From the NCBI RefSeq assembly GCF_000735135.1, contig NZ_JPLZ01000006.1:1240001-1304000 (forward strand): a stretch of DNA of 64,000 nt. Direction: 5' to 3'. Of this stretch, positions 1-64,000 are shown in pieces; positions within the stretch are counted from its first letter, which is position 1; every line of letters begins with the position of its first letter. The DNA is from Chryseobacterium sp. FH1. GTDB lineage: Bacteria; Bacteroidota; Bacteroidia; Flavobacteriales; Weeksellaceae. Made by a program: the position numbers and the translations under genes. The notes under the pieces were generated by a model. The model did not search any database. It was not told the DNA's origin and saw only the letters and a list, made by a program, of their open reading frames with translations.

Positions 1-332
1 AGGCCTTTGTAAGCTCCCAACATCCCAACAAACAAAATACAAACTGAGAAAATCCCGATGAACTTCGGAAGGTTCTGCTTTTTGCTTTCGTCTTCTGCAT
101 TCAGATTTAACATCATTAATATATAAAGGAACAAAACCATAATTGCTCCTGTGTAAACAATGATTTGAACTATACCTAAGAATTGCGCGTTAAGAAGAAT
201 GTACATTCCCGCAATGGAGAACATCGTCACGATCAAAGAAAGGATCGCATACATCGGATTTTTTGCAAAAACGAAGTAAACTGCGCTTGCAATCGCTAAA
301 AATGCTACGAAAAAAAATAAAAACTGATCCAT
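1..332 (-). CDS. nuoJ: NADH-quinone oxidoreductase subunit J (partial)
   Basis: This is the N-terminal 110 residues of the complex I membrane subunit J; the rest lies beyond the left edge. The protein starts MDQFLFFFVAFLAIASAVYF and shows four hydrophobic segments at about residues 2-20, 27-48, 53-77 and 90-108. The third contains the YTGAIMVLFLY signature that forms the pi-bulge helix of NuoJ in the proton-pumping arm. The ATG at 332 shares one base with the stop codon of nuoI (TAATG), which implies translational coupling. It is the last visible gene of the leftward nuo operon. The assignment rests on the signature, the hydrophobicity and the operon position. Confidence 0.93.
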   Translation of the reverse strand, partial: MDQFLFFFVAFLAIASAVYFVFAKNPMYAILSLIVTMFSIAGMYILLNAQFLGIVQIIVYTGAIMVLFLYILMMLNLNAEDESKKQNLPKFIGIFSVCILFVGMLGAYKG

Positions 333-889
333 TATTTTACTGCATTTTTTTGTTTCTCAGATTGTCTCGGCGTGATGTCAATCCTTGCATTAATTTTCTC
401 TACCAATTTATCTTTTCCGTAGATGAAAGAATTTCTGTTCATTTCAACATCAACCAACCTGTCTGTTAAGTAGATCGCAGATTTAGGACAAGCCTCTTCA
501 CACATACCGCAGAAGATGCATCTCAACATATTGATTTCGTAGATCTCTGCATATTTTTCCTCGCGGTACAGATCTTTCTCTTCTTTTTTTCTTTCGCCGG
601 CTGTCATTGTAATGGCTTCTGCAGGGCAAGCCACGGCACAAAGTCCACAAGCTGTACATCTTTCTCTACCTTCCTCATCACGTTTCAAAACGTGTAGCCC
701 ACGCCAAACTTGAGCGCGCGGTTTTTGAACCTCAGGATAAGAATAAACATTTGGAGCACCTTTTACAACGGTTCTCACAGCGTGTTTAAAAGTAATCCCC
801 ATCCCTTTGATAATCGCAGGCAAGTAGATCTTTTCGGCCAAGGTCATTTCTTTGTTCGAAACAACTTTTGATCTGTTAGTAAGTTTCAT
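332..889 (-). CDS. nuoI: NADH-quinone oxidoreductase subunit I
   Basis: This 185-residue protein is the 8Fe ferredoxin-like subunit that carries clusters N6a and N6b in the arm joining the peripheral and membrane parts of complex I. Two complete 4Fe-4S motifs are visible: Cys78, 81, 84 and 88 (CTACGLCAVACP) and Cys124, 127, 130 and 134 (CIFCGMCEEACP). The N-terminal amphipathic stretch (about residues 17-45) is typical of NuoI. The length is normal for the family. It follows nuoH after a 134-bp spacer and overlaps nuoJ by one base. Nothing in the gene looks damaged. Confidence 0.97.
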   Translation of the reverse strand: MKLTNRSKVVSNKEMTLAEKIYLPAIIKGMGITFKHAVRTVVKGAPNVYSYPEVQKPRAQVWRGLHVLKRDEEGRERCTACGLCAVACPAEAITMTAGERKKEEKDLYREEKYAEIYEINMLRCIFCGMCEEACPKSAIYLTDRLVDVEMNRNSFIYGKDKLVEKINARIDITPRQSEKQKNAVK

Positions 890-995
890 TATTTTTTATA
901 TTAAATGTTAGAAGATGGAAGCTTATTGAATGGAAGTTAATTCCTTCGTCGCTTTTCACATCAGCTCATTTTCAAATTTTCTATATTTTAACATC

Positions 996-1023
996 AGTCT
1001 CCCGACTTCTGACTTCCCACCTA
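996..1023. repeat. heptad-period tract, nuoI-nuoH spacer
   Basis: Four in-phase 7-nt units (AGTCTCC, CGACTTC, TGACTTC, CCACCTA) run up to the nuoH stop codon. Looser GGAAG-type units occur at 909-936 in the same spacer. This is a weaker member of the heptad class described in the findings. Confidence 0.45.
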
Positions 1024-2088
1024 TTAATTTCCAAATGCTAAAATCACAGCACCTGTTACAATTAGATTTACCAAAGCCAATGGAATCAAAGTTTTCCATC
1101 CAAGGTGCATCAATTGGTCATATCTAAATCTCGGAAGTGTCCATCTGATCCACATAAAGATCAAGATTCCAACTACTGTCTTTGTTAAGAATGCTACGAT
1201 GCTTAAGATTCCAGCCGCATTTTCTCCCCAATTCTGAGTTACCCAATCGATTCCAGGATAGTTGTAGCCTCCGAAGAAAAGAACTACGATGAATGCATTA
1301 GAAATGAACATATTCACATATTCCCCAAACATATACAATCCTAATTTCATTGATGAATATTCGGTAGAATATCCTGTAACCAATTCGGATTCACATTCTG
1401 GTAGATCGAACGGGTGACGGTTGGTCTCTGCCAAAGCTGCAACAAAGAATATTAAGAAAGCCAAAGGTTGATAAAGAATATTCCAGTTGATCCCAGAAAT
1501 AGCAGGAATGAATCCCCAGATTTTCCCAGTTGCCTGTACTTCAGAGATCATTTTAAGGTCAAGACTTCCTGTCATCATAATGATTGACAACAAAGACAAT
1601 CCCATTGCCAACTCGTAAGAGATCATTTGAGAAGAAGCTCTGATGGCGCCAAGCAATGAATATTTATTATTCGAAGCCCAACCTCCGATCATGATTCCGT
1701 AAACACCGATGGAAGCCATTCCGATGATGAACAACACGCCAACGTCGATATTTGCAACTTGCAGATCAAAAGAATTTCCGCCAATGTTTAATGTTTTTCC
1801 CCAAGGAATCACTGCGCCAGTGATCAATGAAATGAACATGACCAAAGAAGGTCCTAATATAAAAAGGAATTTCTCCGCGTGTTGTGGCGTAAAATCCTCT
1901 TTGAAGAAAAATTTACCACCATCTGCCAACGGTTGCAACAATCCGAAAGGTCCCGATCTGTTTGGTCCGATCCTGTCCTGCATAATAGCGGCCACTTTTC
2001 TTTCTGCCCAAGTAGAGTAGGCTGCGATTGTAAGCGCAAGAAGGAATAGAGCAAGTACCAATATGATTTTAAAAGTCAGTAATTCCAT
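1024..2088 (-). CDS. nuoH: NADH-quinone oxidoreductase subunit H
   Basis: This 354-residue polytopic protein is the complex I subunit that forms much of the quinone chamber. Diagnostic family segments are the early loop AERKVAAIMQDRIGPNRSG (from about residue 28) and the acidic loop PECESELVTGY at about 230-240, equivalent to the conserved ESE loop. About eight hydrophobic helices are spread over the length. The size is normal for NuoH. It lies between nuoG (42-bp gap upstream) and nuoI in the same operon. Long ORFs antisense to it are shadows. Confidence 0.97.
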   Translation of the reverse strand: MELLTFKIILVLALFLLALTIAAYSTWAERKVAAIMQDRIGPNRSGPFGLLQPLADGGKFFFKEDFTPQHAEKFLFILGPSLVMFISLITGAVIPWGKTLNIGGNSFDLQVANIDVGVLFIIGMASIGVYGIMIGGWASNNKYSLLGAIRASSQMISYELAMGLSLLSIIMMTGSLDLKMISEVQATGKIWGFIPAISGINWNILYQPLAFLIFFVAALAETNRHPFDLPECESELVTGYSTEYSSMKLGLYMFGEYVNMFISNAFIVVLFFGGYNYPGIDWVTQNWGENAAGILSIVAFLTKTVVGILIFMWIRWTLPRFRYDQLMHLGWKTLIPLALVNLIVTGAVILAFGN

Positions 2089-2129
2089 ATCAATTTATTT
2101 GAGTTTTGATTTTTGAGATGTTCTCAAAA

Positions 2130-3158
2130 TCAAATCGTCTCATTATCTAATTTTTCAATTTCTTTTTCGTCTGAAACACCAATTTCTTTGGCTTCAAAAT
2201 TTTCTAAAACATTGTAGCTGTCTGTTTTTTTCTCATAATGATTTAGAGAGATCACAGAATGTCTGTCGATGTGTCTTGGTCCTTCGATGTTCCAAAGTGC
2301 AGTGTCTTTTTTGTGGAAACGACACTCGTCACAGATCCATTCTTCAACTTCGCCGTATTGGTCTTTTCTAGCCGTTACTCTCACCACTTCATCACCCTTC
2401 ATCCAAACGACCGCTTTTCCGCTACATTTTGTACAAGAACAAGTTGCGTTGTAAGGTTTTGTGAACCAAACTCTGCTGGTGAATCTTGCCGTTCTGTCTG
2501 TCAATGCCCCAACTGGACAAACATCGATCACGTTTCCGATGAAATCGTTATCCAAAGCTTTGTTCAACATTGTAGAGATCTCTGCGTGGTCTCCTCTGTA
2601 AAGGATTCCGTGCTCTCTTTTCTCCGTCAACTGATTCGCTGCCAATACGCATCTTGCGCAAAGGATGCAACGGTTCATATTCAATTTGATGTTTGGACCG
2701 ATGTCGTCTGCATCATAGGTATTTCTTTCGAACTCAGTTCTGGTTTCGAGATTTCCGTGCTCGTAGCCAAGATCCTGAAGATGACATTCTCCCGCCTGAT
2801 CACAAACCGGGCAATCCAAAGGGTGATTGACCAAAAGGAATTCGGTCACCGCCTTTCTACCTTCCTGTGCTTTTTCAGAACTGAGGTTTTTCACTTCCAT
2901 TCCGTCCATCACGCCAGTCCTACAGCTTGCAACCAATTTAGGCATTGGTCTCGGGTCTGCTTCGGAACCTTTGGAAACTTCTACCAAACACGTTCTGCAT
3001 CGGCCTCCGCTGGTTTCCAGTTTGCTATAATAACACATAGCTGGCGGCACAGATTTTCCTCCGATTTGTCTTGCAGCTTCCAAAATAGAAGTGCCAGGCA
3101 AAACTTCAGTCGTTTGTCCGTCTATGGTAACTTTAAATTTTTTGACTTCTTCGCTCAT
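2130..3158 (-). CDS. nuoG: NADH-quinone oxidoreductase subunit G, short form (2Fe-2S/4Fe-4S protein)
   Basis: This is the iron-sulfur electron-wire subunit of complex I. The N-terminal 2Fe-2S ferredoxin fold has Cys42, 54, 57 and 79. A His112/Cys116/119/125 set fits cluster N5, Cys164/167/170/214 fits N4, and Cys240/242/245/276/279 begins the 4Fe-4S region that precedes the molybdopterin-oxidoreductase-like part in long NuoG. At 342 residues it lacks nearly all of that C-terminal domain, present in the roughly 700-900-residue versions. From family knowledge, flavobacteria commonly carry this short form, so it is probably not a truncation artefact. The stop is clean and nuoH follows. Confidence 0.92.
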   Translation of the reverse strand: MSEEVKKFKVTIDGQTTEVLPGTSILEAARQIGGKSVPPAMCYYSKLETSGGRCRTCLVEVSKGSEADPRPMPKLVASCRTGVMDGMEVKNLSSEKAQEGRKAVTEFLLVNHPLDCPVCDQAGECHLQDLGYEHGNLETRTEFERNTYDADDIGPNIKLNMNRCILCARCVLAANQLTEKREHGILYRGDHAEISTMLNKALDNDFIGNVIDVCPVGALTDRTARFTSRVWFTKPYNATCSCTKCSGKAVVWMKGDEVVRVTARKDQYGEVEEWICDECRFHKKDTALWNIEGPRHIDRHSVISLNHYEKKTDSYNVLENFEAKEIGVSDEKEIEKLDNETI

Positions 3159-3254
3159 ATTTCAAGGTTTTAGATTTTCGGATTTTAGATTAAATCTTTG
3201 TCCTAGATCTTTTGTCAATTCTATTTATATTTAAAATATAACTTGATGTATATT

Positions 3255-4127
3255 TTAGTTCTTTAATTTTCTATTAAAAACGTATCCGATTCCAAAATTA
3301 ACTTGGTAGAATACGAAGTCCTGACTCGCTTTATCAGGTTTATTGTTAAGCGTAGTTTTGATATCCGGCATATTGATGTAACCAAATTTTCCTTCTACTC
3401 TTGCCATCCAATGATTCCAGAAAACAAGATTGATGTTGGCTCTTGCGTCCAATCCAAATCCAGCCACGTGAAATCTGTCACTTCTTTCATTTCCAAAAAG
3501 TTTCACATTGCTTTTTGGAAAAAGAACACCTGCGCCAGCTCCGTAAGCCCAATGGATATCAAAGTTCTTTCTTGATAATATATTTTTATATTTCTCAATT
3601 CCTGCGTTCACGTAGTTTAGTCCGTCCGTGTGCTCAAAGGTAAGAAACTCAGCGCTACTTAAATCTACTTGGCCATTCTGAACCATTGCTGCATAAGTCG
3701 GGTCTGAGATGTTTCCATTGAACTTTGCCGTTTGATCTTGATCCATCACATATTTCATATGATCTGTTCCAACGACCAAAGCCAAATCATCTTTGAAAAA
3801 ATATCCAAATCTGAAATTGAACTGAGGCTTGGAAATCTGTCCTGGATTGATGTAATCCCAAGTCAATTCCGAAGGTCTGTCGTGTGCTTTTACATTTTGA
3901 AGCGTAAAATCATAGCCATTCCCCTTGAATCGAATATCAGAATCACTGAATCCCGCTCTGTTCCATCCCCAAAAGCCGAACATTGTTCCTTTAGTGAATG
4001 TTGATTTATTAATTGGAAGCAAGTCAACAGAACCACTTTCAATCAAAGAATCTTTTTTTATTTTCTGTCCTACTACAAGATTTAATCCTATGATAGTTAC
4101 AAAAAATGCATTTAATATCTTCTTCAT
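3255..4127 (-). CDS. Outer-membrane beta-barrel protein of unknown function inside the nuo operon
   Basis: The protein is about 290 residues from the ATG at 4127, chosen because it opens a clear signal peptide (MKKILNAFFVTIIGLNLVVG). An upstream in-frame start at 4184 would add 19 charged residues and is unlikely. The mature part has alternating aromatic strands (FGFWGWNRAG, FNFRFGYFF, FGYINMP, YQVNFGIGYVF), which suggests a porin-like or OmpA-like barrel. I do not recognise a specific family. It is co-directional with nuoF and nuoG and sits between them, an unusual place for an outer-membrane gene, since complex I is an inner-membrane machine. A role in respiration cannot be inferred from position alone. 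Confidence 0.8.
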   Translation of the reverse strand: MKKILNAFFVTIIGLNLVVGQKIKKDSLIESGSVDLLPINKSTFTKGTMFGFWGWNRAGFSDSDIRFKGNGYDFTLQNVKAHDRPSELTWDYINPGQISKPQFNFRFGYFFKDDLALVVGTDHMKYVMDQDQTAKFNGNISDPTYAAMVQNGQVDLSSAEFLTFEHTDGLNYVNAGIEKYKNILSRKNFDIHWAYGAGAGVLFPKSNVKLFGNERSDRFHVAGFGLDARANINLVFWNHWMARVEGKFGYINMPDIKTTLNNKPDKASQDFVFYQVNFGIGYVFNRKLKN

Positions 4128-4226
4128 TATTCTATTTGGATACCGATATCCATTTTTTATGAACGCTTCTCTCGTGCTTTGCACTATAAAAAATCTATTT
4201 TTTGAAAGTTTGTTCTTTGTGTTTTT

Positions 4227-5579
4227 TTATTTGGATACTGCTGGAATCGGGTCTGCATAATTTGCAATTCCATAATTTTGGGTTTGGCTCAACTCTGGGT
4301 TGTTCACGTGCCATTCAAACTCATCTCTGAAGTGTCTGATAGCAGCAGCAACCGGCCAGGCAGCAGCATCTCCCAAAGGACAAATGGTATTACCTTCAAT
4401 TTTTCTCTGGATATCCCAAAGCAAATCGATGTCTTCCATTTTGCCTTCCCCTTTTTCTATTTTTTTCAAGATTTTGTACATCCAGCCCGTTCCTTCACGA
4501 CAAGGTGTACATTGTCCACAACTCTCGTGGTTGTAGAATCTTGCTAATGTCATTGTATGATTTACCACACATTGGTCTTCATCCAAAACTATAAATCCAC
4601 CTGAACCCATCATTGTTCCGGTAGCAAAACCACCATCAGCAAGGGATTCATAATTCATATATCTTGGTTCACCATTGATGGTTTTCAGTAATAAGTTTGC
4701 AGGAACGATTGGAACAGAACTTCCACCAGGAATACAAGCTTTCAGCTTTTTACCGTTCGGGATGCCACCACAATATTCATCAGAATAAATAAATTCCTCA
4801 ACCGTAATGGTCATATCAATTTCGTAAACGCCTGGTTTGTTGATGTTTCCACAAGCTGAAATCAATTTGGTTCCAGTTGATTTTCCAACACCGATTTTAG
4901 CATATTCAGCGCCAGAAATTTCGATAATAGGAACAACAGCGGCGATAGATTCTACGTTATTTACAACCGTTGGTCTTTCCCAAAGTCCTTTTACCGCTGG
5001 GAAAGGTGGTTTTAGTCTTGGGTTTCCTCTTTTGCCTTCAAGAGATTCTAGCAAAGCAGTTTCTTCGCCACAGATGTAGGCACCGCCACCTCTCTGAACA
5101 TAAATTTCGCAATCGAAACCACTTCCCAAGATATTCTTCCCAAGAAAACCTGCTGCTTTCGCTTCTTCGATTGCCTCTTCCAAAATATCCGGAATCCAAG
5201 AATATTCTCCTCTGATGTAGATGTATGAAACATTGGAACCTAAAACAAAAGATGAAATCAACATTCCTTCAATTAGTAAATGAGGAAGAAACTCCATCAA
5301 ATATCGGTCTTTGAAAGTTCCCGGTTCAGACTCATCGGCATTTACGACCAAGTGTCTTGGAACGCCTTCTGGTTTTGCAAGGAAACTCCATTTAAGTCCT
5401 GTTGGGAAACCAGCGCCACCACGACCACGAAGTCCGGAGATTTTCACTTCCTCCAGGATTTCCTCAGGTTTCATTTTAAAGGCTTTTTCTGCCGACTCGT
5501 AACCACCGTGTTTGCGGTAAGTTTCGTAGTAGCGAATGCCTTCTATATGTGCGTTTTTAAGTAAAAGTTTTTTACTCAT
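4227..5579 (-). CDS. nuoF: NADH-quinone oxidoreductase subunit F
   Basis: This 450-residue protein is the flavoprotein that binds NADH and FMN and carries cluster N3. Visible motifs are the glycine-rich GRGGAGFPTG at about 52-61 (NADH/FMN site), GAYICGEETALLESLEG at 166-182 (FMN site), and the 4Fe-4S ligands Cys354, 357, 360 (SCGQCTPCREG) plus Cys400. The size is normal. It works with NuoE and NuoG to feed electrons from NADH into the iron-sulfur chain. The nuoE-nuoF spacer holds a heptad-repeat tract, and an outer-membrane protein gene follows downstream instead of nuoG. Confidence 0.97.
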   Translation of the reverse strand: MSKKLLLKNAHIEGIRYYETYRKHGGYESAEKAFKMKPEEILEEVKISGLRGRGGAGFPTGLKWSFLAKPEGVPRHLVVNADESEPGTFKDRYLMEFLPHLLIEGMLISSFVLGSNVSYIYIRGEYSWIPDILEEAIEEAKAAGFLGKNILGSGFDCEIYVQRGGGAYICGEETALLESLEGKRGNPRLKPPFPAVKGLWERPTVVNNVESIAAVVPIIEISGAEYAKIGVGKSTGTKLISACGNINKPGVYEIDMTITVEEFIYSDEYCGGIPNGKKLKACIPGGSSVPIVPANLLLKTINGEPRYMNYESLADGGFATGTMMGSGGFIVLDEDQCVVNHTMTLARFYNHESCGQCTPCREGTGWMYKILKKIEKGEGKMEDIDLLWDIQRKIEGNTICPLGDAAAWPVAAAIRHFRDEFEWHVNNPELSQTQNYGIANYADPIPAVSK

Positions 5580-5586
5580 TGTTATA

Positions 5587-5635
5587 TGCTTTTAGCGAAT
5601 GGCTTTTAGCTTTTGGCTATTTGCTGTACGCCTTT
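5587..5635. repeat. heptad-repeat tract, nuoE-nuoF spacer (GC every 7 nt)
   Basis: Seven consecutive 7-nt units are TGCTTTT, AGCGAAT, GGCTTTT, AGCTTTT, GGCTATT, TGCTGTA and CGCCTTT. GC stands at positions 2-3 of every unit while the other positions vary. The tract fills most of the 79-bp gap. No stem-loop or reading frame explains the strict 7-nt phase. Confidence 0.8.
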
Positions 5636-5658
5636 TTTAATTAATTTAAAATTTATTC

Positions 5659-6168
5659 TTAACCTAAATCGATTGCGCCTTGTCTGCAAAGGTCAATGAT
5701 TTCGTCAACTTTTTCGATGGTCAAATGCTCGTGGTAGAATTTTCCCAACTGCATCATCGGTGCATATCCGCAAGCGCCAAGACATTCTCCAGGTTTCAAA
5801 GTGAAAAGTCCGTCTGCTGTGGTTTCGCCGTCTTTGATATTCAATTTTGTTCTGATGTGGTCGAGAATGTTATCACTTCCATTCAGCATGCAAGGTCCGG
5901 TTCTGCAGACTTCCAAAACATATTTCCCCACCGGCTTCATATTGAACATAGTATAGAAAGTAGCAACTTCATATACTTCAATCGGCGTGATGCTCAATAA
6001 TTCTGCAACATAATCCATCACTGGAACAGCCAGCCAACCATCAAATTCTTTCTGTGCAATGTGCAAGACAGGAATCAACGCAGATTTTTGTCTGCCTTCC
6101 GGATATCTCGCTATAATTTTATGAACCTGCGCTAAGCTTTCAGGTTTAAAAGCAATTGTTTCGCTCAT
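5659..6168 (-). CDS. nuoE: NADH-quinone oxidoreductase subunit E
   Basis: This 169-residue protein has a thioredoxin-like 2Fe-2S fold and carries cluster N1a beside the NuoF flavin site. The four ligands are visible as Cys88 and Cys93 (CRTGPC) and Cys129 and Cys133 (CLGAC). The VYEVATFYTMFN segment at about 65-76 is a NuoE/24-kDa signature. The length matches the family. The gene lies between nuoD and nuoF, and both flanking spacers contain heptad-period repeats. Confidence 0.97.
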   Translation of the reverse strand: MSETIAFKPESLAQVHKIIARYPEGRQKSALIPVLHIAQKEFDGWLAVPVMDYVAELLSITPIEVYEVATFYTMFNMKPVGKYVLEVCRTGPCMLNGSDNILDHIRTKLNIKDGETTADGLFTLKPGECLGACGYAPMMQLGKFYHEHLTIEKVDEIIDLCRQGAIDLG

Positions 6169-6175
6169 CTTATTT

Positions 6176-6231
6176 AAGATTAAAGAATCAAGAACAAAGA
6201 GTCAAGACTCGTAATTCTATATTCTAAATTC
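6176..6231. repeat. heptad-repeat tract, nuoD-nuoE spacer
   Basis: Eight 7-nt units stay in phase: AAGATTA, AAGAATC, AAGAACA, AAGAGTC and AAGACTC, then GTAATTC, TATATTC and TAAATTC. The first five share AAGA and the last three share a TNAATTC-like pattern. The motif differs from the GC-type tract next door, but the period is the same. Confidence 0.78.
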
Positions 6232-6288
6232 AATTTTTATTTTGATATGAAAGTCTTTACTCTTTCATCTTTTTTCTTGTTGTCTTTG

Positions 6289-7512
6289 TTATGCGTCTAA
6301 TTCTCCCGCAATGATATTCATACTACACATCGTTACAATCGCATCAGATATTACTGCGCCCGTAATCATTTCCGGATAGGCTTGATAATAAATGAAACAA
6401 GGTCTTCTGAAGTGAAGTCTGTAAGGCGTTCTTCCGCCATCGCTCACAAGATAGAATCCTAATTCTCCGTTTCCACCTTCTACAGCGTGGTAAACTTCGC
6501 CTTTAGGAACATCTGTTTCTCCCATTACGATTTTGAAATGGTAAATCAAGGCTTCCATTTTGTTGTAAACATCTGCCTTTTCGGGAAGATAGAAATCCGG
6601 AACATCCGCGTGGAATGGTCCTTCTGGAAGGTTGTCGTAAGCTTGGTTGATGATTTTCAAAGATTCCCAAATCTCCTGCTGACGAACCATAAAACGGTCG
6701 TAAGTATCGCCCGCAGTTCCAACCGGAATGATGAAATCGAAGTCCTCGTAAGAAGAATAAGGCTGAGCAACTCTCACGTCATAATCAACGCCGGTCGCAC
6801 GTAGGTTCGGACCTGTGAAACCGTAGCTCAAAGCTCTCTCTGCTGAGATTGCGCCTGCGCCGATGGTTCTGTCCATAAAGATTCGGTTTCTTTCTAACAA
6901 TTGTCCAAATTCTGCGAATCTTGCTGGGAAAGTTTTCAGGAAGTCTTTCAACAACTCGTGGAACTTTGGTGTGAAGTCTCTTTCGAAACCGCCAATTCTT
7001 CCCATATTGGTCGTCATCCTTGCACCGCAAATCTGCTCGTACATATCATAAATACGTTCTCTTTCGATGAACATATAAGTCAATCCTGTGATTGCGCCGG
7101 CATCCATTCCTGTTACACCGTTGCATATCAAATGGTCACCAATTCTCGCCAACTCCATCAAAATCACACGCATATAATCGACACGTTTTGGAACTTTGAT
7201 TCCAAGTAATTTCTCAACTGTCATATGCCAACCCAAATTGTTGATGGGTGCAGAACAGTAGTTCATTCTATCAGTAAGCGTCGTGATTTGTGCAAAGTTT
7301 CTTCTCTCAGAGATTTTTTCAAATGCTCTGTGGATATAACCTACAGTTTGCTCAGCGTGAAGAATCCTTTCTCCGTCCATCGTAAGAACGTTCTGGAAAA
7401 TTCCGTGAGTTGCAGGGTGCGTAGGTCCAAGATTCAGGGTGTATAGTTGCCCGTCGATTTGTTCCTTGCTGTCGTATTGGTTAAGTATATTAGATAATGA
7501 GTTATCTTTCAT
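6289..7512 (-). CDS. nuoD: NADH-quinone oxidoreductase subunit D
   Basis: This 407-residue protein is the 49-kDa subunit that, with NuoB, builds the quinone-reduction site near cluster N2. The N-terminal GPTHPATHG (29-37) is the loop carrying the quinone-headgroup histidine, and HAEQTVGYIHRAFEK follows. The C-terminal part, with the RLHFRRPCF segment, is also family-typical. The product is full length, separate from NuoC (not a NuoCD fusion). The gap of 62 bp from nuoC is almost entirely a heptad tract. Confidence 0.97.
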   Translation of the reverse strand: MKDNSLSNILNQYDSKEQIDGQLYTLNLGPTHPATHGIFQNVLTMDGERILHAEQTVGYIHRAFEKISERRNFAQITTLTDRMNYCSAPINNLGWHMTVEKLLGIKVPKRVDYMRVILMELARIGDHLICNGVTGMDAGAITGLTYMFIERERIYDMYEQICGARMTTNMGRIGGFERDFTPKFHELLKDFLKTFPARFAEFGQLLERNRIFMDRTIGAGAISAERALSYGFTGPNLRATGVDYDVRVAQPYSSYEDFDFIIPVGTAGDTYDRFMVRQQEIWESLKIINQAYDNLPEGPFHADVPDFYLPEKADVYNKMEALIYHFKIVMGETDVPKGEVYHAVEGGNGELGFYLVSDGGRTPYRLHFRRPCFIYYQAYPEMITGAVISDAIVTMCSMNIIAGELDA

Positions 7513-7518
7513 AATATT

Positions 7519-7574
7519 TGCTTTTAGCTATTTGCTTCTGGCTATTGGCTAAGTGCCATTAGCCATATGCTATA
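7519..7574. repeat. heptad-repeat tract, nuoC-nuoD spacer (GC every 7 nt)
   Basis: Eight consecutive units run up to the nuoC stop codon: TGCTTTT, AGCTATT, TGCTTCT, GGCTATT, GGCTAAG, TGCCATT, AGCCATA and TGCTATA. All eight have GC at positions 2-3. This is the longest unbroken GC-type tract in the window. Confidence 0.82.
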
Positions 7575-8069
7575 CTATCTTCCGAACATACTATCGTTCT
7601 TGTCTGTTCTGGTTCCATCTTCCAAGCGATATTCTTTCAGCATTGGATGATAACCAAGGTCTTCCATATTAAGGATTGGTCTCAAATCTGGGTGACCTTT
7701 GAATTTGATTCCGTAGAAATCAAAAGTTTCTCTTTCCATCCAGTTGGCGCCGGCATATAATTCTGTCAAAGAATCAACTTCAACGTTTTCTCTCGTCATA
7801 AAAACTTTCATACGAATTCTGAAATTGGTCATCATATTATGCAAATGATAAATAACGCCGATTTCCTTTTCAGGTGTTTCAGGATAATGAATCCCACAAA
7901 CGTCCGTCAAAAAATTAATTTCTAAAGTTGAATCTTTCAAATAATGAATCACCTTTTTGATATCGTCTTTCTTGATTTCAACCGTCAGCATTCCGTAAGG
8001 TTCTGAACTTGAAATCACAGACTCAGGAAATTCTCTCGTGATAGCTTCTAATACAAATTCGTTCGTCAT
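7575..8069 (-). CDS. nuoC: NADH-quinone oxidoreductase subunit C
   Basis: This 164-residue protein is the 30-kDa scaffold subunit of the complex I peripheral arm. The family signature ERETFDFYGIKFKGHPDLR lies at about 112-130, followed by the conserved PILNMEDL stretch. It has no cofactor ligands, as expected. The start lies 5 bp after the nuoB stop, so the pair is tightly coupled. It is a separate polypeptide, not fused to NuoD. Confidence 0.96.
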   Translation of the reverse strand: MTNEFVLEAITREFPESVISSSEPYGMLTVEIKKDDIKKVIHYLKDSTLEINFLTDVCGIHYPETPEKEIGVIYHLHNMMTNFRIRMKVFMTRENVEVDSLTELYAGANWMERETFDFYGIKFKGHPDLRPILNMEDLGYHPMLKEYRLEDGTRTDKNDSMFGR

Positions 8070-8074
8070 CTTCC

Positions 8075-8635
8075 TTAGTTACTAATATTGTAAGAATCCA
8101 ATAAATGCTGATATTCCGGCATATCTCTTCTTCTGATGCTTTCGCTTTCTGCCAAAGCCTGCACCTGCATTACACCTTCGATGATTTGTTCCGGTCTTGG
8201 CGGACATCCTGGGACATAAACGTCAACAGGAATGATTTTGTCAATCCCTTGAAGAACCGAATAAGTATCAAAAATACCACCGCTGGAAGCACAAGCACCA
8301 ACAGCAACCACCCATTTTGGCTCAGCCATTTGGGTGTAAACTTCTTTCAAAACGGGACCTAATTTCTTAGCAATCGTTCCGCAAACCATCAACATATCTG
8401 CCTGTCTTGGAGAGAAAGAGTTTCTTTCCATCCCAAATCTTGACGCATCAAATGTTGGATTCAATGTCGCCATAAATTCGATTCCACAACAAGACGTCGC
8501 GAAAGGTAGAGGCCAAAGTGAAAACTTTCTTGCCATCCCAATCACACTGCTCAAGTTGGTTGCGAAAAATCCTTCTCCTTCAAATCCTGGAGGAGCGGGC
8601 GCATCTGTTTTTATTACTGGTTTATTATCTGACAT
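8075..8635 (-). CDS. nuoB: NADH-quinone oxidoreductase subunit B
   Basis: This 186-residue protein binds the terminal cluster N2 that reduces quinone. The unusual adjacent cysteines Cys49-Cys50 (TSCCGIEF), with Cys115 and Cys144 (VPGCPPRPEQ), form the complete N2 ligand set. The N-terminal 20 residues are a short extension rich in Pro and Asp. It sits between nuoA and nuoC with the usual gene order. Confidence 0.97.
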   Translation of the reverse strand: MSDNKPVIKTDAPAPPGFEGEGFFATNLSSVIGMARKFSLWPLPFATSCCGIEFMATLNPTFDASRFGMERNSFSPRQADMLMVCGTIAKKLGPVLKEVYTQMAEPKWVVAVGACASSGGIFDTYSVLQGIDKIIPVDVYVPGCPPRPEQIIEGVMQVQALAESESIRRRDMPEYQHLLDSYNISN

Positions 8636-8641
8636 TTTTTC

Positions 8642-8683
8642 TAGATTTTAAATTTTAGATTTTAATTGATTCAATTTTAAATC
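8642..8683. repeat. heptad-period tract, nuoA-nuoB spacer
   Basis: AT-rich units TAGATTT, TAAATTT, TAGATTT, TAATTGA, TTCAATT and TTAAATC can be read in phase at 7 nt. Low complexity makes this tract less certain than the GC-type ones. Confidence 0.5.
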
Positions 8684-8703
8684 CAAAACGTAATTAATTT
8701 AAT

Positions 8704-9075
8704 TTATTTGTCCCAATCTAATGCGCCTCTTTTCCAAACGTAGAAAAAAGCAACAAAGAAAATAGCAACAAACGTAAGTACGGCAACAAAGCCTTCCATT
8801 CCAAACTCTCTAAAGTTGACTGCGTACGGGTAGAAGAATACAATCTCGATATCGAACAATACGAACAAAACTGCAGTCAGGAAATATTTGATGGAGAATG
8901 GTGTTCTAGCGTTACCTTCACTAGGAATACCACATTCCCAAGCTTGGTTTTTTACAGAATTCCCTTTCTTCTGTTTAGGACCCAAATAATGAGCTCCCAA
9001 CAAAGAAATAAGTACGAATCCAAGACCGACTCCAGCCTGGATAAGTATCGGAATATAATTTTCGGGTAAATTCAT
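8704..9075 (-). CDS. nuoA: NADH-quinone oxidoreductase subunit A
   Basis: This 123-residue subunit has three membrane helices. The ECGIPSEG loop (Glu47-Cys48, between helices 1 and 2, lining the quinone channel) and the acidic pair in FDIEIVFFYPYAV (about Asp75 and Glu77) in helix 2 are the family hallmarks. It is the first gene of the nuo operon. A candidate -7 element lies just upstream at 9096-9103. Confidence 0.96.
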   Translation of the reverse strand: MNLPENYIPILIQAGVGLGFVLISLLGAHYLGPKQKKGNSVKNQAWECGIPSEGNARTPFSIKYFLTAVLFVLFDIEIVFFYPYAVNFREFGMEGFVAVLTFVAIFFVAFFYVWKRGALDWDK

Positions 9076-9095
9076 AAGATATAAATTAAACAGTG

Positions 9096-9103
9096 CAAAA
9101 ATA
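9096..9103 (-). promoter_or_regulatory. Candidate -7 element of the nuo operon
   Basis: The minus strand reads TATTTTTG, matching the Bacteroidota -7 consensus TANNTTTG, 21 bp ahead of the nuoA start. No TTG is found at the expected -33 distance, so this rests on the -7 box alone. Confidence 0.4.
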
Positions 9104-9195
9104 CTAAATAAAGATTTAATATATTAAATTATCGGCCTTAGCTGGACAAGAGAAAAGTCTGTTTTAGTAAATTTAGAACAGTTATAAATAAGGGC

Positions 9196-9381
9196 TTATT
9201 TGTCTTTCTTTCCAATCCGCTTCAGTACAAGATAAGCAATATAAGCGATGTAAAGAAACAACACGCTGGCAAACAATATGTTGATGATGGCGTCCATTCT
9301 TTCATCTTTCACAGGTTTGTAGAAGTTGTAAGCGACAAACAAAATGATGAGACCAGCGTAAACGTATAATTGCTTTTTCAA
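9196..9381 (-). CDS. Small two-helix membrane protein, unknown function
   Basis: This 61-residue protein has two hydrophobic segments (about residues 5-20 and 31-52) joined by a charged loop, and ends in a basic tail (KRIGKKDK). No family is recognised. It is co-directional with the GNAT gene to its right and ends 121 bp before nuoA starts. Codon use and a compact ORF filling the gap favour a real gene. It could be co-transcribed with the upstream acetyltransferase. Confidence 0.6.
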   Translation of the reverse strand: MKKQLYVYAGLIILFVAYNFYKPVKDERMDAIINILFASVLFLYIAYIAYLVLKRIGKKDK

Positions 9382-9445
9382 TTCAGTTTTGATTTTAAAG
9401 ATTTAAAAATATGATTCAGGATTTGTATTTTGTTAAACGATTGTT

Positions 9446-9480
9446 TGATAAATCATTTATCAACTATCACTTATCATTTA
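9446..9480. repeat. heptad-repeat tract at the 3' end of the GNAT gene
   Basis: Unit TGATAAA is followed by TCATTTA, TCAACTA, TCACTTA and TCATTTA, all in phase; the last four share TCA at the start and TA at the end. The final unit overlaps the stop codon of the leftward GNAT gene. The pattern is related, on the other strand, to the tract upstream of groES (GATNGTT). Confidence 0.7.
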
Positions 9481-10604
9481 TTTAGTTGTAGTGAATAAGT
9501 TCGTCTGCTTTTGTGATGCACCGGATGATAATCTTGCCAAAGAACCTGTACGCTCTTGTTTTCCTCCAATTCTGGATTGGTCTCGAGATATTTGATGCCT
9601 TTGTTTTTGAGGTTCATTTGAATCGCTTTAAAAATCATTGACGTCACGCCTCTTCTTTGATATTCTGGATGGATTCCAATCAAATAGAAATTCGCGCGCT
9701 CATTCTTCTTTCCAGCCTGTAAAAAGTGCCACCAGCCGAATGGGAAAAGTTTTCCGTTTGATTTCTGCAAAGCCTTGGAATAAGAAGGCATCGTAATCGC
9801 AAACGCCACCAACTGATTGTTCTCGTCAGCCACGCAGGTGATATAATCTTTGTCTATAAAGCCGAAATATTTCTCTTTGTAAGTCTTGATTTGCTCGTCA
9901 GAAATGGGAGTGTAAGTGGAAAGGTGCTTGTAAGTCTCATCCAACAATTTGAACATCGACTCTACGTAAGGCAAAATCTCTTTTTTATGTTTGAATTTTA
10001 AAGTCCTCAGCTTATATTTCTGAGCAATCAATGAACTGAATTTCTCCACCTTTTCAGGCAAAATTTCCGGGAATTGCAATTCAAATTCTACCCATTCTTT
10101 TTCTTTTACCAAACCAAGATTCTCCAGATGTTTTGGGTAATAATCGTTGTTGTAAAGTCCAATCATCGTTGCCAATTTATCAAACCCGAAAGTCAACATT
10201 CCAGCCTTGTCCAAGTTCGTAAATCCCATCGGACCTTCGATTTTATCGATTTGATTTTCCTTAGCATAATTGATGGCGATATCAATCAAAGCTTTGGAAA
10301 CTTCTGCATCATCAACAAAATCCAACCAGCCAAATCTCACCTTTTTGATGCCAAGTTCTTTCTCTTCTTTTCTATTAATCAAAACAGCAATTCTACCAAC
10401 GATCTTATCATTTTCTAAAGCTAAAAATTGTTTCGCTTCCGAATAGTTGAGTGCTGGATTTTCTTTCGGATTCCAGATGTTTTTTTCTTCATTAATGAGA
10501 GGCGGAACGTAATTTGGGTTGTCTTGGTACAGATTCATCGGGAATTTGATAAAGTCCATCAATTCTTTTTCCGTCGTAACTTGTTTTATATCGATATTTC
10601 CCAT
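9474..10604 (-). CDS. GNAT-fold N-acetyltransferase family protein
   Basis: The protein has 376 residues. The acetyl-CoA-binding signature of GNAT enzymes is visible near the C-terminus: YLIGIHPEYQRRGVTSMIF at about 308-326, with QRRGVT matching the Q/R-x-x-G-x-G/A loop. The N-terminal half begins with a second GNAT-like region (about 1-120, with ALENDKIVGRIAVLINRK). The substrate is unknown. It stands alone behind a well-matched promoter, divergent from the Zn peptidase. The stop codon lies inside a heptad tract. Confidence 0.8.
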   Translation of the reverse strand: MGNIDIKQVTTEKELMDFIKFPMNLYQDNPNYVPPLINEEKNIWNPKENPALNYSEAKQFLALENDKIVGRIAVLINRKEEKELGIKKVRFGWLDFVDDAEVSKALIDIAINYAKENQIDKIEGPMGFTNLDKAGMLTFGFDKLATMIGLYNNDYYPKHLENLGLVKEKEWVEFELQFPEILPEKVEKFSSLIAQKYKLRTLKFKHKKEILPYVESMFKLLDETYKHLSTYTPISDEQIKTYKEKYFGFIDKDYITCVADENNQLVAFAITMPSYSKALQKSNGKLFPFGWWHFLQAGKKNERANFYLIGIHPEYQRRGVTSMIFKAIQMNLKNKGIKYLETNPELEENKSVQVLWQDYHPVHHKSRRTYSLQLNK

Positions 10605-11548: not shown

Positions 11549-11803
11549 ATGAATACCAAACTAACCTTGACAATTGAAAAAGAAGTAATAGAAATTGCAA
11601 AGGAATATGCAAAGGAAAAAGGACAAAGCTTATCTGAGATGGTTGAGAATTATTTTAAATTCGTAACTGTCAACCGAAAAAAGATGAAAGAAAAACAACT
11701 TTCGCCAAAGGTTAGAAAACTAAGAGGAATTATCAAAACGGACGATGCTTTTGACTACAAACAAATTTTAACCGAAGAACTTTCAAAGAAGTATGGCGTA
11801 TAA
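11549..11803 (+). CDS. Antitoxin of a VapBC-like pair (ribbon-helix-helix, DUF6364-like)
   Basis: This 84-residue protein starts MNTKLTLTIEKEVIEIAKEY, a beta strand followed by a helix, typical of MetJ/Arc ribbon-helix-helix DNA-binding antitoxins. The basic and acidic C-terminal half would wrap the toxin. It precedes the PIN gene and overlaps it by 11 bp, the standard antitoxin-first arrangement. It probably neutralises the toxin and represses the operon. The module lies between two copies of the yigZ 3' end, which marks it as an insertion. Confidence 0.85.
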   Translation: MNTKLTLTIEKEVIEIAKEYAKEKGQSLSEMVENYFKFVTVNRKKMKEKQLSPKVRKLRGIIKTDDAFDYKQILTEELSKKYGV

Positions 11804-12224
11804 GCTTTTTATAGATTCTGATGTGGTGATAGACTTTTTCACGGATAGAGAACCTCATGCAAATCCTGCCAGTGAAATTTTTGAACTCAGCGAACAAGGA
11901 AGTGTGGAACTTTATCTTTCTGCTTTGAGTATCAATAATATTTACTACATAGTAAGAAAATTTTTAGGACACAAGAAAACATTGGAAATTGTTGAAACCT
12001 TGGTAGAAATGACCGAGGTAATAGGAACTTCTAAAGCAGAAATATTACAAGCTTTGAAAAATGATTTTTCTGATTTTGAAGATTCTGTACAATATTCTTC
12101 CGCATTGACCATTACAGGTTTAGACGCAATTATAACAAGGAACGTCAAAGATTATAGGAATTCTTCTATTGCTGTCATGACTCCTTTGAATTTTCTGAAA
12201 ATGATAGAAAAGAATGGCAATTAA
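11793..12224 (+). CDS. PIN-domain ribonuclease toxin (VapC-like)
   Basis: This 143-residue protein has the PIN acidic residues at the N-terminus (FIDSDVVIDFF: Asp8, Asp10, Asp14), a central acidic helix (DFSDFEDSVQYSSA) and the late LDAIITRNVKDY segment, which together form the metal-dependent RNase site. In VapBC systems such toxins cleave tRNA or rRNA; the target here is unknown. It overlaps the antitoxin by 11 bp. The stop lies 3 bp before the right-hand copy of the yigZ end. Confidence 0.88.
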   Translation: MAYKLFIDSDVVIDFFTDREPHANPASEIFELSEQGSVELYLSALSINNIYYIVRKFLGHKKTLEIVETLVEMTEVIGTSKAEILQALKNDFSDFEDSVQYSSALTITGLDAIITRNVKDYRNSSIAVMTPLNFLKMIEKNGN

Positions 12225-30421: not shown

Positions 30422-30488
30422 TTACTTTTCTTAGATTTCTACAAATTTAAGGCGAATTTTTCAGACTGAAAAAATGAGAAATAAGAAA

Positions 30489-30604
30489 GTCTTCGAGAGC
30501 CTCAGACTGACAATGCTGAAAAAGTCCTCGACTCCGCTCAGACTGACAATCCATTCCTATGCGATTATCATTAGGGATGTCACACTGAGCGGAGTCGAAG
30601 TGTC
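30489..30604. repeat. Cluster of three dispersed-repeat units
   Basis: The unit at 30489-30514 is identical over 26 bp to 28821-28846. The unit at 30524-30550 has the CTCGACTCCGCTCAGACTGA variant. The unit at 30578-30604 is inverted (CACTGAGCGGAGTCGAAG). The last two could pair as a long hairpin between the two leftward genes pyrEF and tag. Confidence 0.78.
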
Positions 30605-30612
30605 TTTAATTG

Positions 30613-47752: not shown

Positions 47753-49430
<1,678 letters not shown>

Positions 49431-49441
49431 TTAATTTTATT

Positions 49442-49798: not shown

Positions 49799-49816
49799 TG
49801 CTAATTTTCAATACAG

Positions 49817-49851
49817 AAGCTAGTAGCCAGAAGCTAAAAGCTATTAGCCAG
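49817..49851. repeat. heptad-repeat tract between the four-helix-bundle gene and groES
   Basis: Units AAGCTAG, TAGCCAG, AAGCTAA, AAGCTAT and TAGCCAG carry GC at 7-nt spacing in all five. On the minus strand it reads like the tract on the other side of the four-helix-bundle gene, so the two are inverted relative to each other. Confidence 0.75.
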
Positions 49852-50125: not shown

Positions 50126-50190
50126 AATTATATTTGATTTTTTAATATTTATTCTCATTCCTACATCTCCAAGAATGTGCCAAGGTTGTC

Positions 50191-50225
50191 GATGGTTGAT
50201 AGTTGATGATTGATTGTTCGATTTG
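50191..50225. repeat. heptad-repeat tract upstream of groES
   Basis: Units GATGGTT, GATAGTT, GATGATT and GATTGTT are in perfect phase (GAT at 1-3, TT at 6-7), followed by CGATTTG. On the other strand this is an AACNATC series, similar to the tract at 9446-9480. Confidence 0.72.
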
Positions 50226-50261
50226 GCAGATTTTTATTTTGGAACTGAAATTTTGGCAGAA

Positions 50262-50290
50262 AAAAAAGTCATTCGATTTGAATGACTTTT
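50262..50290 (-). terminator. Terminator of the ParE-type toxin-antitoxin operon
   Basis: The stem AAAAGTCATTC/GAATGACTTTT with a U run for leftward transcripts overlaps the toxin stop region. Confidence 0.8.
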
Positions 50291-62896: not shown

Positions 62897-64000
62897 ATGA
62901 TTAATTTTTATTTTAAACATTTTAAACATTTTAAACATTTTAAATGTTTAACACTAAAACTATGTAAGGTAATTCCTATGTTGCTATTAGGAATTAATTT
63001 TTATGCCCAAGTAGATATTGGGACTAATCTGATAGGACCACTAAGTATTGAACCAGGATCGCCCCTTAGCTATACATTGTTGGTCACAAATAATGGATCG
63101 ACCACTGCATCTAATGTAAACATAAAGTTTCCTGTAGCATCTAACTTTACAGCCACGGGTATAACCTGTACAGCGGGCGCGGGAACTGGAGGATCAGCAT
63201 CTTGTCCAAATAGCTTAACGTTAACTGGATTACAGGGGACAGGTCTTGTCATCCCAATACTTCCAGAAGGTAGCGGTATCACGTTTACAATTAGCGGAAC
63301 ATCAGGCAATACACCTGAAACGATTGTTACAAATACCGCAACAGTAGAGCATCCTGGAGATTCTAATACGACTAACAACAATTCTTCAATCAGTACGGGC
63401 ATCTTTGTAACACCCTGTGCTACCACTACATATAAGCTAGATGTTAATGCTACATTGGCATTGCCAAGCAATGTGGTAGGAATCAATGGCGGTAACGTAA
63501 ACCTAGTCTATGCACTTGCAAGTGGAGTGGCAATACCTGGTATAGGGAATTCTTTTACATTACCTCTAGCTTACTCTGACCTCAACAATCAATACGGAGT
63601 TGATAACCGCTGGCAGGCACTTACCCAAGGTAGTAGTTCGACCTTAGGCAGATCAGGTTTGATGCTGGTTCCAAGAACTGATGGTGTCGGTAGTCTTTAC
63701 AACTCGCTCCCCGCAAATAATTCTACCAGCGAAACTGATTTAAGTTTTAATAATACCGATAATGTATTCACAACAAAAATAGAAGATGGTAGCCTAAATC
63801 AATTAGGGAGGTTCGCTATTGAAATAGGGAATTACCCCACTGCACCTGGAGTTTCAAAGATCGTGTCACACCAATATGTAAATTGGAACACCGGTAATCT
63901 AAGACCCGTTACTTCAGGTTGGTGGTTAAAACCACATGGCAATACGCAGATTTTCACCTCCAGTGCCGGATCTCCAACGGTACCAATTGGCATGCAACCA
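62897..64000 (+). CDS. Large secreted/surface protein with DUF11-like repeats (partial)
   Basis: A reading frame open from the ATG at 62897 to the right edge gives at least 368 residues. An unusually long basic N-terminus made of FKH repeats precedes a hydrophobic core (KVIPMLLLGINFYAQ) that acts as signal peptide. The mature part starts VDIGTNLIGPLSIEPGSPLSYTL and continues with NNGSTTASNVNIKFPVASNF, the DUF11/isopeptide-like conserved repeat found in surface adhesins, then Asn/Thr/Ser-rich sequence with few charged residues. Codon use (many GTA, CTA, GGG, ACC) differs from the neighbours. Surface display, perhaps by T9SS, is inferred. Confidence 0.75.
   Translation, partial: MINFYFKHFKHFKHFKCLTLKLCKVIPMLLLGINFYAQVDIGTNLIGPLSIEPGSPLSYTLLVTNNGSTTASNVNIKFPVASNFTATGITCTAGAGTGGSASCPNSLTLTGLQGTGLVIPILPEGSGITFTISGTSGNTPETIVTNTATVEHPGDSNTTNNNSSISTGIFVTPCATTTYKLDVNATLALPSNVVGINGGNVNLVYALASGVAIPGIGNSFTLPLAYSDLNNQYGVDNRWQALTQGSSSTLGRSGLMLVPRTDGVGSLYNSLPANNSTSETDLSFNNTDNVFTTKIEDGSLNQLGRFAIEIGNYPTAPGVSKIVSHQYVNWNTGNLRPVTSGWWLKPHGNTQIFTSSAGSPTVPIGMQP
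62911..62946. repeat. 9-bp tandem repeat in the signal-peptide region of the DUF11-like gene
   Basis: TTTTAAACA occurs three times in a row (62911-62937), followed by the partial copy TTTTAAATG. Each unit encodes Phe-Lys-His in frame, so copy-number change would lengthen or shorten the n-region without a frameshift. Confidence 0.85.

Follow-up and report, generated by a model that had tools for sequence, protein, structure and literature searches.

Arrays of seven-nucleotide repeats (heptads) outside genes are known from cyanobacteria as short tandemly repeated repetitive sequences (STRRs). Here we describe degenerate heptads in a flavobacterium, Chryseobacterium sp. FH1 (assembly GCF_000735135.1; 4.0 Mb, 12 contigs), where they lie in spacers of the nuo operon and in other spacers between co-directional genes; the whole stretch analysed, called the window below, comprises 64,000 nucleotides of contig NZ_JPLZ01000006.1 (positions 1,240,001 to 1,304,000). 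These spacers are characterized by their place, period, tendency to inverted arms, alternative pairing registers, polarity and switching: whole spacers switch between unrelated heptad families, from stop codon to start codon, and are only weakly tied to the gene tree. Heptanucleotide long simple sequence repeats (LSSRs) are likewise heptad arrays outside genes (cited in PMC4679880). In this respect the spacers described here resemble both STRRs and LSSRs. We know of no confinement to co-directional spacers and no inverted arms in either.

The nearest known system is the P6b stem of the group I intron in the Nostoc tRNA-Leu(UAA) gene, with Class I (TDNGATT) and Class II (NNTGAGT) heptads (PMC4476775). 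There, as here, a stem is formed by degenerate pairing 7-nt repeats, the two unrelated classes having a similar structure, and the whole region has been replaced repeatedly, off the phylogeny; but P6b is a single cyanobacterial intron locus, whereas here many intercistronic spacers and many heptad families of flavobacteria are concerned. Rfam gave no group I intron match in the window, and the heptad spacers sit between protein genes. TAACTGA heptamer direct repeats are described from Beggiatoaceae, cyanobacteria and five Bacteroidetes; two flavobacteria have them, together with other heptamers (PMC4679880). They, too, are 7-nt direct repeats in intergenic DNA, often right before start codons, but they have one fixed unit and no particular predicted RNA structure, whereas the spacers described here have variable units, inverted arms and exchange. 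No tandem TAACTGA is present among our listed tracts and spacers, which were not searched for it separately. The kinship with known heptad repeats proposed by the first-pass annotation of the window is borne out; its remark that it knew of no description of this class in flavobacteria was wrong or incomplete, as heptamer direct repeats had been reported there, Gramella forsetii included (MacGregor 2015, PMC4679880).

Replacement by unrelated sequence between conserved genes, incongruent with gene trees, is described upstream of genes in E. coli and S. aureus as switched intergenic regions or horizontal regulatory transfer (Piggy, PMC5890482). The replacement seen here is of the same kind but concerns operon-internal heptad spacers and crosses species boundaries. 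Among the titles and abstract openings listed by a literature search covering few subscription papers, none concerned degenerate heptad hairpins or operon spacer exchange in the Chryseobacterium group, and variable units, inverted arms and cross-species exchange in operon spacers are combined in neither the Nostoc P6b nor the TAACTGA accounts, in the parts available. Spacers inside operons are commonly taken for filler. In the core respiratory complex described here they have one architecture in common while their sequence changes wholesale, and they seem to pass between species more readily than the adjoining genes.

Whole-spacer switching at the nuo genes

Minus-strand genes at 332-9075 of the window match models of NuoA to NuoF, NuoH, NuoI and the initial part of NuoG. 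Epilithonimonas lactis has the same NuoD, without a difference, and its five compared nuo genes are 97% identical to those of the window; from this identity we take the genome to be an Epilithonimonas. The genes from nuoB to nuoF are 96-98% identical between the window and E. lactis. The nuoC-nuoD spacer (7513-7574, minus strand) is of an AGC type in the window, with eight units at 7519-7574, and of an unrelated ATCA type in E. lactis, agreeing at 28 of 62 positions in a forced alignment. The switch breaks at the stop codon (TAG vs TAA) and at the start codon, and the third codon positions within 60 nt on each side are identical. As for the neighbouring spacers, nuoD-nuoE (6169-6288, minus strand; AAGA/TCTT-type heptads with an inverted 5' arm) agrees at 98 of 115 positions, and nuoE-nuoF (5580-5658, minus strand; a single start-proximal arm of AGC type at 5587-5635) at all 78.

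The comparison was extended to 80 loci; loci are denoted by L-numbers. Related species show four motif types at nuoC-nuoD and as many at nuoD-nuoE; in congeners the types at nuoC-nuoD, nuoD-nuoE and nuoE-nuoF occur in varied combinations, and linkage between the first two is not significant (p 0.088). On a tree of five nuo genes from the window and 36 of the 80 loci, with types assigned by motif counts (the short nuoC-nuoD spacers of L037 and L056 being typed as 'none', a limit of start calling), the nuoC-nuoD type changes 17 times, the minimum being 4 and the mean of shuffles 19.7, and 19 of 200 shuffles are as low; the nuoD-nuoE type changes 14 times. On a second tree, of the window and 34 loci, six spacers were typed by identity, which gives numbers different from motif typing: 9, 11, 17, 11, 9 and 14 changes, where the minima are 5, 4, 6, 3, 5 and 6 and shuffles average 9.6, 10.4, 20.9, 14.4, 10.7 and 18.6. 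As in switched intergenic regions, unrelated spacers thus stand at the same gene pair and are incongruent with the gene tree, some tree signal being retained.

Identical spacers also occur beside diverged genes: L053 and L057 agree at 62 of 62 positions, L123 and L134 at 138 of 138, with flanking third-position identities of 0.69 and 0.65, respectively. Spacer identity of at least 95% with flanks below 75% was observed in 14 of 1205 pairs at nuoC-nuoD and in 42 of 1325 pairs at nuoD-nuoE, a few of these counts representing one species twice or more (L035 and L116; L037 and L123, which have the same spacer; L067, L131 and L132). Control coding windows of 46 third positions never reach 95% (0/8680), and do so in a sliding scan in 2 of 1240 pairs; windows of 21 third positions reach it in 32 of 21080 cases and in 167 of 1240 pairs of the sliding scan, so that the contrast with coding DNA is clear for the longer spacer only. 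Flanking identity is much alike for pairs with the same and with different spacer types; in most cases the two differ by a few points at most, the nearest 30 nt included. The chief exception is the most diverged class downstream of nuoD-nuoE (0.79 for the same type vs 0.67 nearest to the spacer, and higher throughout).

The window was also compared with five close genomes, for the spacers with a counterpart there, which many window spacers lack. Co-directional heptad spacers fall below 0.6 identity in 12 of 31 comparisons, involving six of seven spacers, whereas other spacers do so in 3 of 45 (co-directional 2/28, divergent 0/13, convergent 1/4; Fisher p 8e-4). The test excluded one convergent and one divergent spacer with a tract in some version, which are below 0.6 in 4/4 and 3/4 comparisons, respectively.

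A separate observation concerns nuoH-nuoI, where the start-side arrays of L044, L051, L054, L058 and L067 are much alike and the stop-side parts differ; this suggests recombination inside spacers too.

Period 7 and anatomy of the spacers

Genes were called with a simple codon-usage script of our own, which misplaces some starts and with them the spacer limits (as at nuoD-nuoE of L039 and L050). Rates for the own genome were computed from the window and 13 stretches (260 kb) not selected for repeats; another seven stretches, six picked by pattern hits and one adjoining the window, were kept out of these rates but entered the tract list and the sets for folds and arms, half-similarity, end pairing, mismatches, phases, promoter motifs and arm regularity. 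Tract rates were counted over spacers of 40-400 nt, a survey of other sets, nuo loci among them, having used spacers up to 600 nt.

Lag-7 autocorrelation exceeds that of shuffled sequence in the spacers of the window (z 5.1; lag-14 z 2.8), in the 13 stretches (z 5.8; lag-14 z 5.6) and, across 34 Chryseobacterium/Epilithonimonas nuo loci, in their 405 co-directional spacers (z 41; lag-14 z 31). Hence the tracts are present in relatives, and the feature is not limited to the nuo operon, to which the first-pass annotation had assigned it, the 13 stretches lying away from the window. In these stretches and the window together we found 16 period-7 tracts vs 1.4 in shuffles and 15 period-14 tracts vs 0.5, and periods 5, 6, 8 and 9 gave fewer tracts than period 7. 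As in STRR-like repeats, period 7 is above both chance and neighbouring periods in non-coding DNA. Coding DNA is nearly free of tracts, with five in 279 kb of the own genome, two in 641 kb of relatives, and two in 371 kb, none in 54 kb and one in 276 kb of further sets. The first-pass annotation was right that units differ between tracts at a common period and that these are not decayed coding repeats.

Period-7 tracts occur in 183 of 727 co-directional spacers and in none of 169 convergent or divergent ones (171 existed, two convergent spacers of one set being too few to score; a Fisher test used all 171). Exceptions come from more distant sets with spacers up to 600 nt, where 1 of 12 and 1 of 39 divergent spacers hold a tract. 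All 21 listed tracts with scores of at least 13 fall in co-directional spacers. Tracts were found in 13/112 co-directional spacers of the own genome (shuffled mean 0.70), 139/369 of Chryseobacterium/Epilithonimonas (1.55), 22/158 of other genera of the family (1.05), 4/18 of another family of the order (0.20) and 5/70 of other families of the class (0.15), counts that are not independent events, orthologous spacers being related. Indels between relatives include 7 nt in nuoH-nuoI compared with E. lactis and 14-nt gaps in the family AGC-A, among others that are not multiples of seven.

Reading the sequence confirmed the six tracts listed by the first-pass annotation and their units: GC stands at unit positions 2-3 in 7/7 units at 5587-5635 and 8/8 at 7519-7574, AAGA opens the first five of eight units at 6176-6231, and TCA--TA fits 4/4 units at 9453-9480. 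Five of the six spacers are above chance with z of at least 2.9 against dinucleotide shuffles: nuoC-nuoD (5.5), nuoD-nuoE (5.7), nuoE-nuoF (3.6), nuoH-nuoI (890-1023, minus strand; GAAGT-type 5' arm at 996-1023 and CTTCC-type 3' arm at about 905-940; 4.1) and the spacer after an acetyltransferase-like gene (9381-9480, minus strand; TGATAAA-type 5' arm over the stop codon; 2.9 for 9381-9473). The sixth, nuoA-nuoB (8636-8703, minus strand; TAAAATC-type 3' arm at 8642-8683), has z 1.8 and is not significant alone. The placement of the tracts between nuo genes holds for all but 9453-9480, which lies upstream of the operon and extends into the 3' end of the acetyltransferase-like gene (9474-10604). 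To call the periodicity strict was an overstatement, as Tandem Repeats Finder, where it detects a nuo-spacer tract, reports 68-86% matches and at score 30 lists no array at 5587-5635 or 996-1023. The earlier picture was also incomplete, having missed the inverted arms, the near-confinement to co-directional spacers and the exchange between species.

In mRNA sense the stop-side and start-side arms of a heptad spacer tend to be reverse complements, for example TGATAAA...TTATCA, GTACAAA...TTTGTAC, CAGATTT...AAATCTG and GGCAATT...AATTGCC, and an imperfect hairpin can form from such a spacer. Half-similarity, end pairing and promoter motifs were analyzed in 53 nonredundant heptad spacers, with 160 other co-directional spacers as contrast. 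Inverted similarity of the halves exceeds direct similarity in 39/53 (null 61%) and also surpasses the cross-spacer null (p 4e-5). Between the first and the last 30 nt, 7.70 pairs are expected, vs 3.85 after dinucleotide shuffling and 3.89 with heptads permuted (p 1e-4 and 1.5e-5, respectively), whereas 60 sampled other co-directional spacers form 2.55, below their 3.23 and 3.68. A larger set comprises 87 nonredundant heptad spacers; 66 of them have a complementary segment with a score of at least 8 and 21 lack one. Alternative pairing registers number 67, 48 and 27 at offsets of 7, 14 and 21, with six or fewer at any other offset. As in a P6b-type stem, repeats pair on both sides, here as a tendency; compensatory change preserving the pairing was not found in the covariation and mismatch analyses.

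The arms are polar. The stop-side arm is G-rich (G 283, C 124) and the start-side arm C-rich (G 142, C 314), while polarity is weak in the 160 other spacers (stop side G 599, C 629; start side G 563, C 739). Start-side arrays are more regular (lag-7 0.566 vs 0.478; 32/52 spacers, p 0.007). The constraint on unit phase is weak, with 3.37 invariant phases vs 2.87 expected and an excess in 47 of 75 arrays, and conservation is much the same at G/C phases as at A/T phases (0.761 and 0.784).

Possible origin and role

We favour, at a probability of about 0.4, the reading that these spacers are hairpin linkers of heptads inside operons, which arise by slippage, spread through exchange of alleles and possibly couple translation. 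Arrays would grow and shrink by 7-nt replication slippage, with which the 7- and 14-nt indels, found among others, are consistent. Arms may be made alike by template switching at quasi-palindromes (PMC7202029, PMC8604942) or kept alike by selection. Homologous recombination over short tracts, with the conserved gene ends as anchors, would carry spacers from species to species, and recombination of this kind has been discussed for switched intergenic regions (PMC5890482). A working role in translation of the downstream gene is a weaker part of this reading: the G-poor start-side arm might serve as an entry region that the stop-side arm masks until a ribosome terminating at the upstream stop codon opens it, and any heptad family would serve if the spacer ends pair. 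Judged from sequence, such a role would fit the co-directional confinement, the polarity, the start-side arm and a phylum that appears to lack functional Shine-Dalgarno pairing (PMC3155529).

Several observations weigh against this reading. In four of the six spacers typed by identity the changes are as few as in the lowest of 200 shuffles, so that some tree signal exists; of the 12 strongly different comparisons out of 31, five repeat a single nuoC-nuoD difference, two involve spacers grown to 586 and 697 nt, and one involves a spacer reduced to 10 nt. Direct half-similarity is also above its null, although less strongly (p 0.003). Mismatches in the arms are A.C in 74 and G.U in 42 cases in heptad spacers, vs 81 and 84 in others, and this shortage of G.U argues against a role because selection on mRNA pairing would favour G.U. 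Covariation within spacer families is scarce, with 0-1 two-sided pairs per family, so that no conserved RNA structure is claimed on this ground. Convergent spacers, presumably terminators, have more arm complementarity and fold better still. Some heptad spacers are one-armed, and nuoE-nuoF measures only 10-11 nt in several congeners. Finally, tract edges are no closer to the stop or start codon than under random placement (p 0.53 and 0.11), which is explained by the tracts filling the spacers.

A purely mutational origin is nearly as likely as the linker reading. Slippage arrays with template-switched arms would then have no function, persisting only inside operons, where they disrupt no promoter or terminator, and being exchanged passively. 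Heptamer excess in many genomes has been attributed to slippage (Mrazek 2007, as cited in PMC4679880), and the indels of 7 and 14 nt, the missing G.U signature, the little covariation and the one-armed and absent alleles all agree with it, as does the presence of heptads in 9 of 45 nonredundant co-directional spacers of the own genome without a promoter motif or T6 run but in 1 of 44 with one. The G/C polarity of the arms and the more regular start-side arm are, however, unexpected from a strand-blind process; whole-spacer differences gather in heptad spacers (12/31 vs 3/45, comparisons that are not independent), and mismatches slightly avoid some phases. That heptad spacers are ordinary promoters, intrinsic terminators or known structured RNAs is hardly credible: some form hairpins and 12/53 have a T-rich flank by a loose test, but terminator-like sequences are commoner in other co-directional spacers (63/160), and an Rfam scan of the window gave two tRNAs and nothing else. 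TAnnTTTG is the flavobacterial promoter box. It is present in 0/53 heptad spacers (shuffled 3.4) and in 44/160 others (shuffled 13.8), so that heptad spacers look operon-internal.

The repeats might instead be mRNA sites of a protein reading 7-nt steps, such as S1, a cold-shock protein or an RNA recognition motif (RRM) protein. Operon-internal arrays near start codons with a more regular start-side arm would suit it, as would the S1 model for initiation without Shine-Dalgarno pairing in Bacteroidetes (PMC3155529) and the suggestion of S1, Csp or Csr for TAACTGA arrays (PMC4679880); yet four motif types at each of nuoC-nuoD and nuoD-nuoE misfit one sequence-reading protein and phase-specific conservation is only weak, making it an unlikely explanation. 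Very unlikely, in our view, is the insertion of selfish small mobile repeats between genes, as might be supposed from the presence or near absence of the array at nuoE-nuoF and from the recurrence of unit families across many sites. Five nuo spacers of the Chryseobacterium group were matched against the window, 20 own stretches and 80 loci. Full-length matches always lie at the same gene pair, including seven that the script had classed as elsewhere after missing a start or gene; cross-site matches are partial only, and a search of the whole own genome with a 31-nt piece of the AGC-type allele gave one further match, with three mismatches. The alleles therefore look site-specific, and transposition is unsupported. 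No conserved ends or target duplications were noticed, though no search was aimed at them.

A stronger version of the linker reading is doubtful. It would make the spacers transmissible, sequence-agnostic RNA linkers, any heptad family working if the ends zip in multiple registers; if true, species would trade whole linkers, retuning the protein ratios of an operon without touching its genes. As series of alleles that occur in nature, the spacers allow one to test what determines protein stoichiometry in operons of bacteria that apparently do without Shine-Dalgarno pairing, and to study how non-coding DNA is shaped by slippage, palindrome correction and recombination.

Other features of the window and of related loci

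Further heptad spacers of the window, all on the minus strand, include nuoG-nuoH (2089-2129), with short inverted heptads TTTGAG / CTCAAA and an own z of 0.6, and, outside the nuo operon, a spacer of AGC type at 49376-49441 (lag-7 z 2.5) and one at 49799-49843 (z 4.1). A co-directional spacer at 50126-50288 holds a period-7 tract at 50191-50218, its arms not being inverted. An extra gene (3255-4127, minus strand) lies between nuoF and nuoG; it matches no NCBIfam or Pfam model and is kept in E. lactis at 97% identity.

A long dispersed inverted repeat, a class distinct from the heptads, was seen in spacers of L017, L023, L026, L029 and L033, its arms containing CTGAGCGGAGTCGAAG. A close variant lies at 30422-30612 of the window, and exact matches occur in 8 of 201 loci, some of which overlap. 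In L117, L118 and L137 the nuoE-nuoF spacer carries a fragment resembling this repeat (CACTGA.CTTGTCGAAGTG) inside an AGC-type array; the fragment is absent from L120 and L122.

At 11549-12224 (plus strand) the window has overlapping genes for a DUF6364 small protein and a PIN_3 domain protein, perhaps a toxin-antitoxin pair. A perfect 9-nt tandem repeat, ATTTTAAAC, is present in 3.9 copies at 62910-62944.

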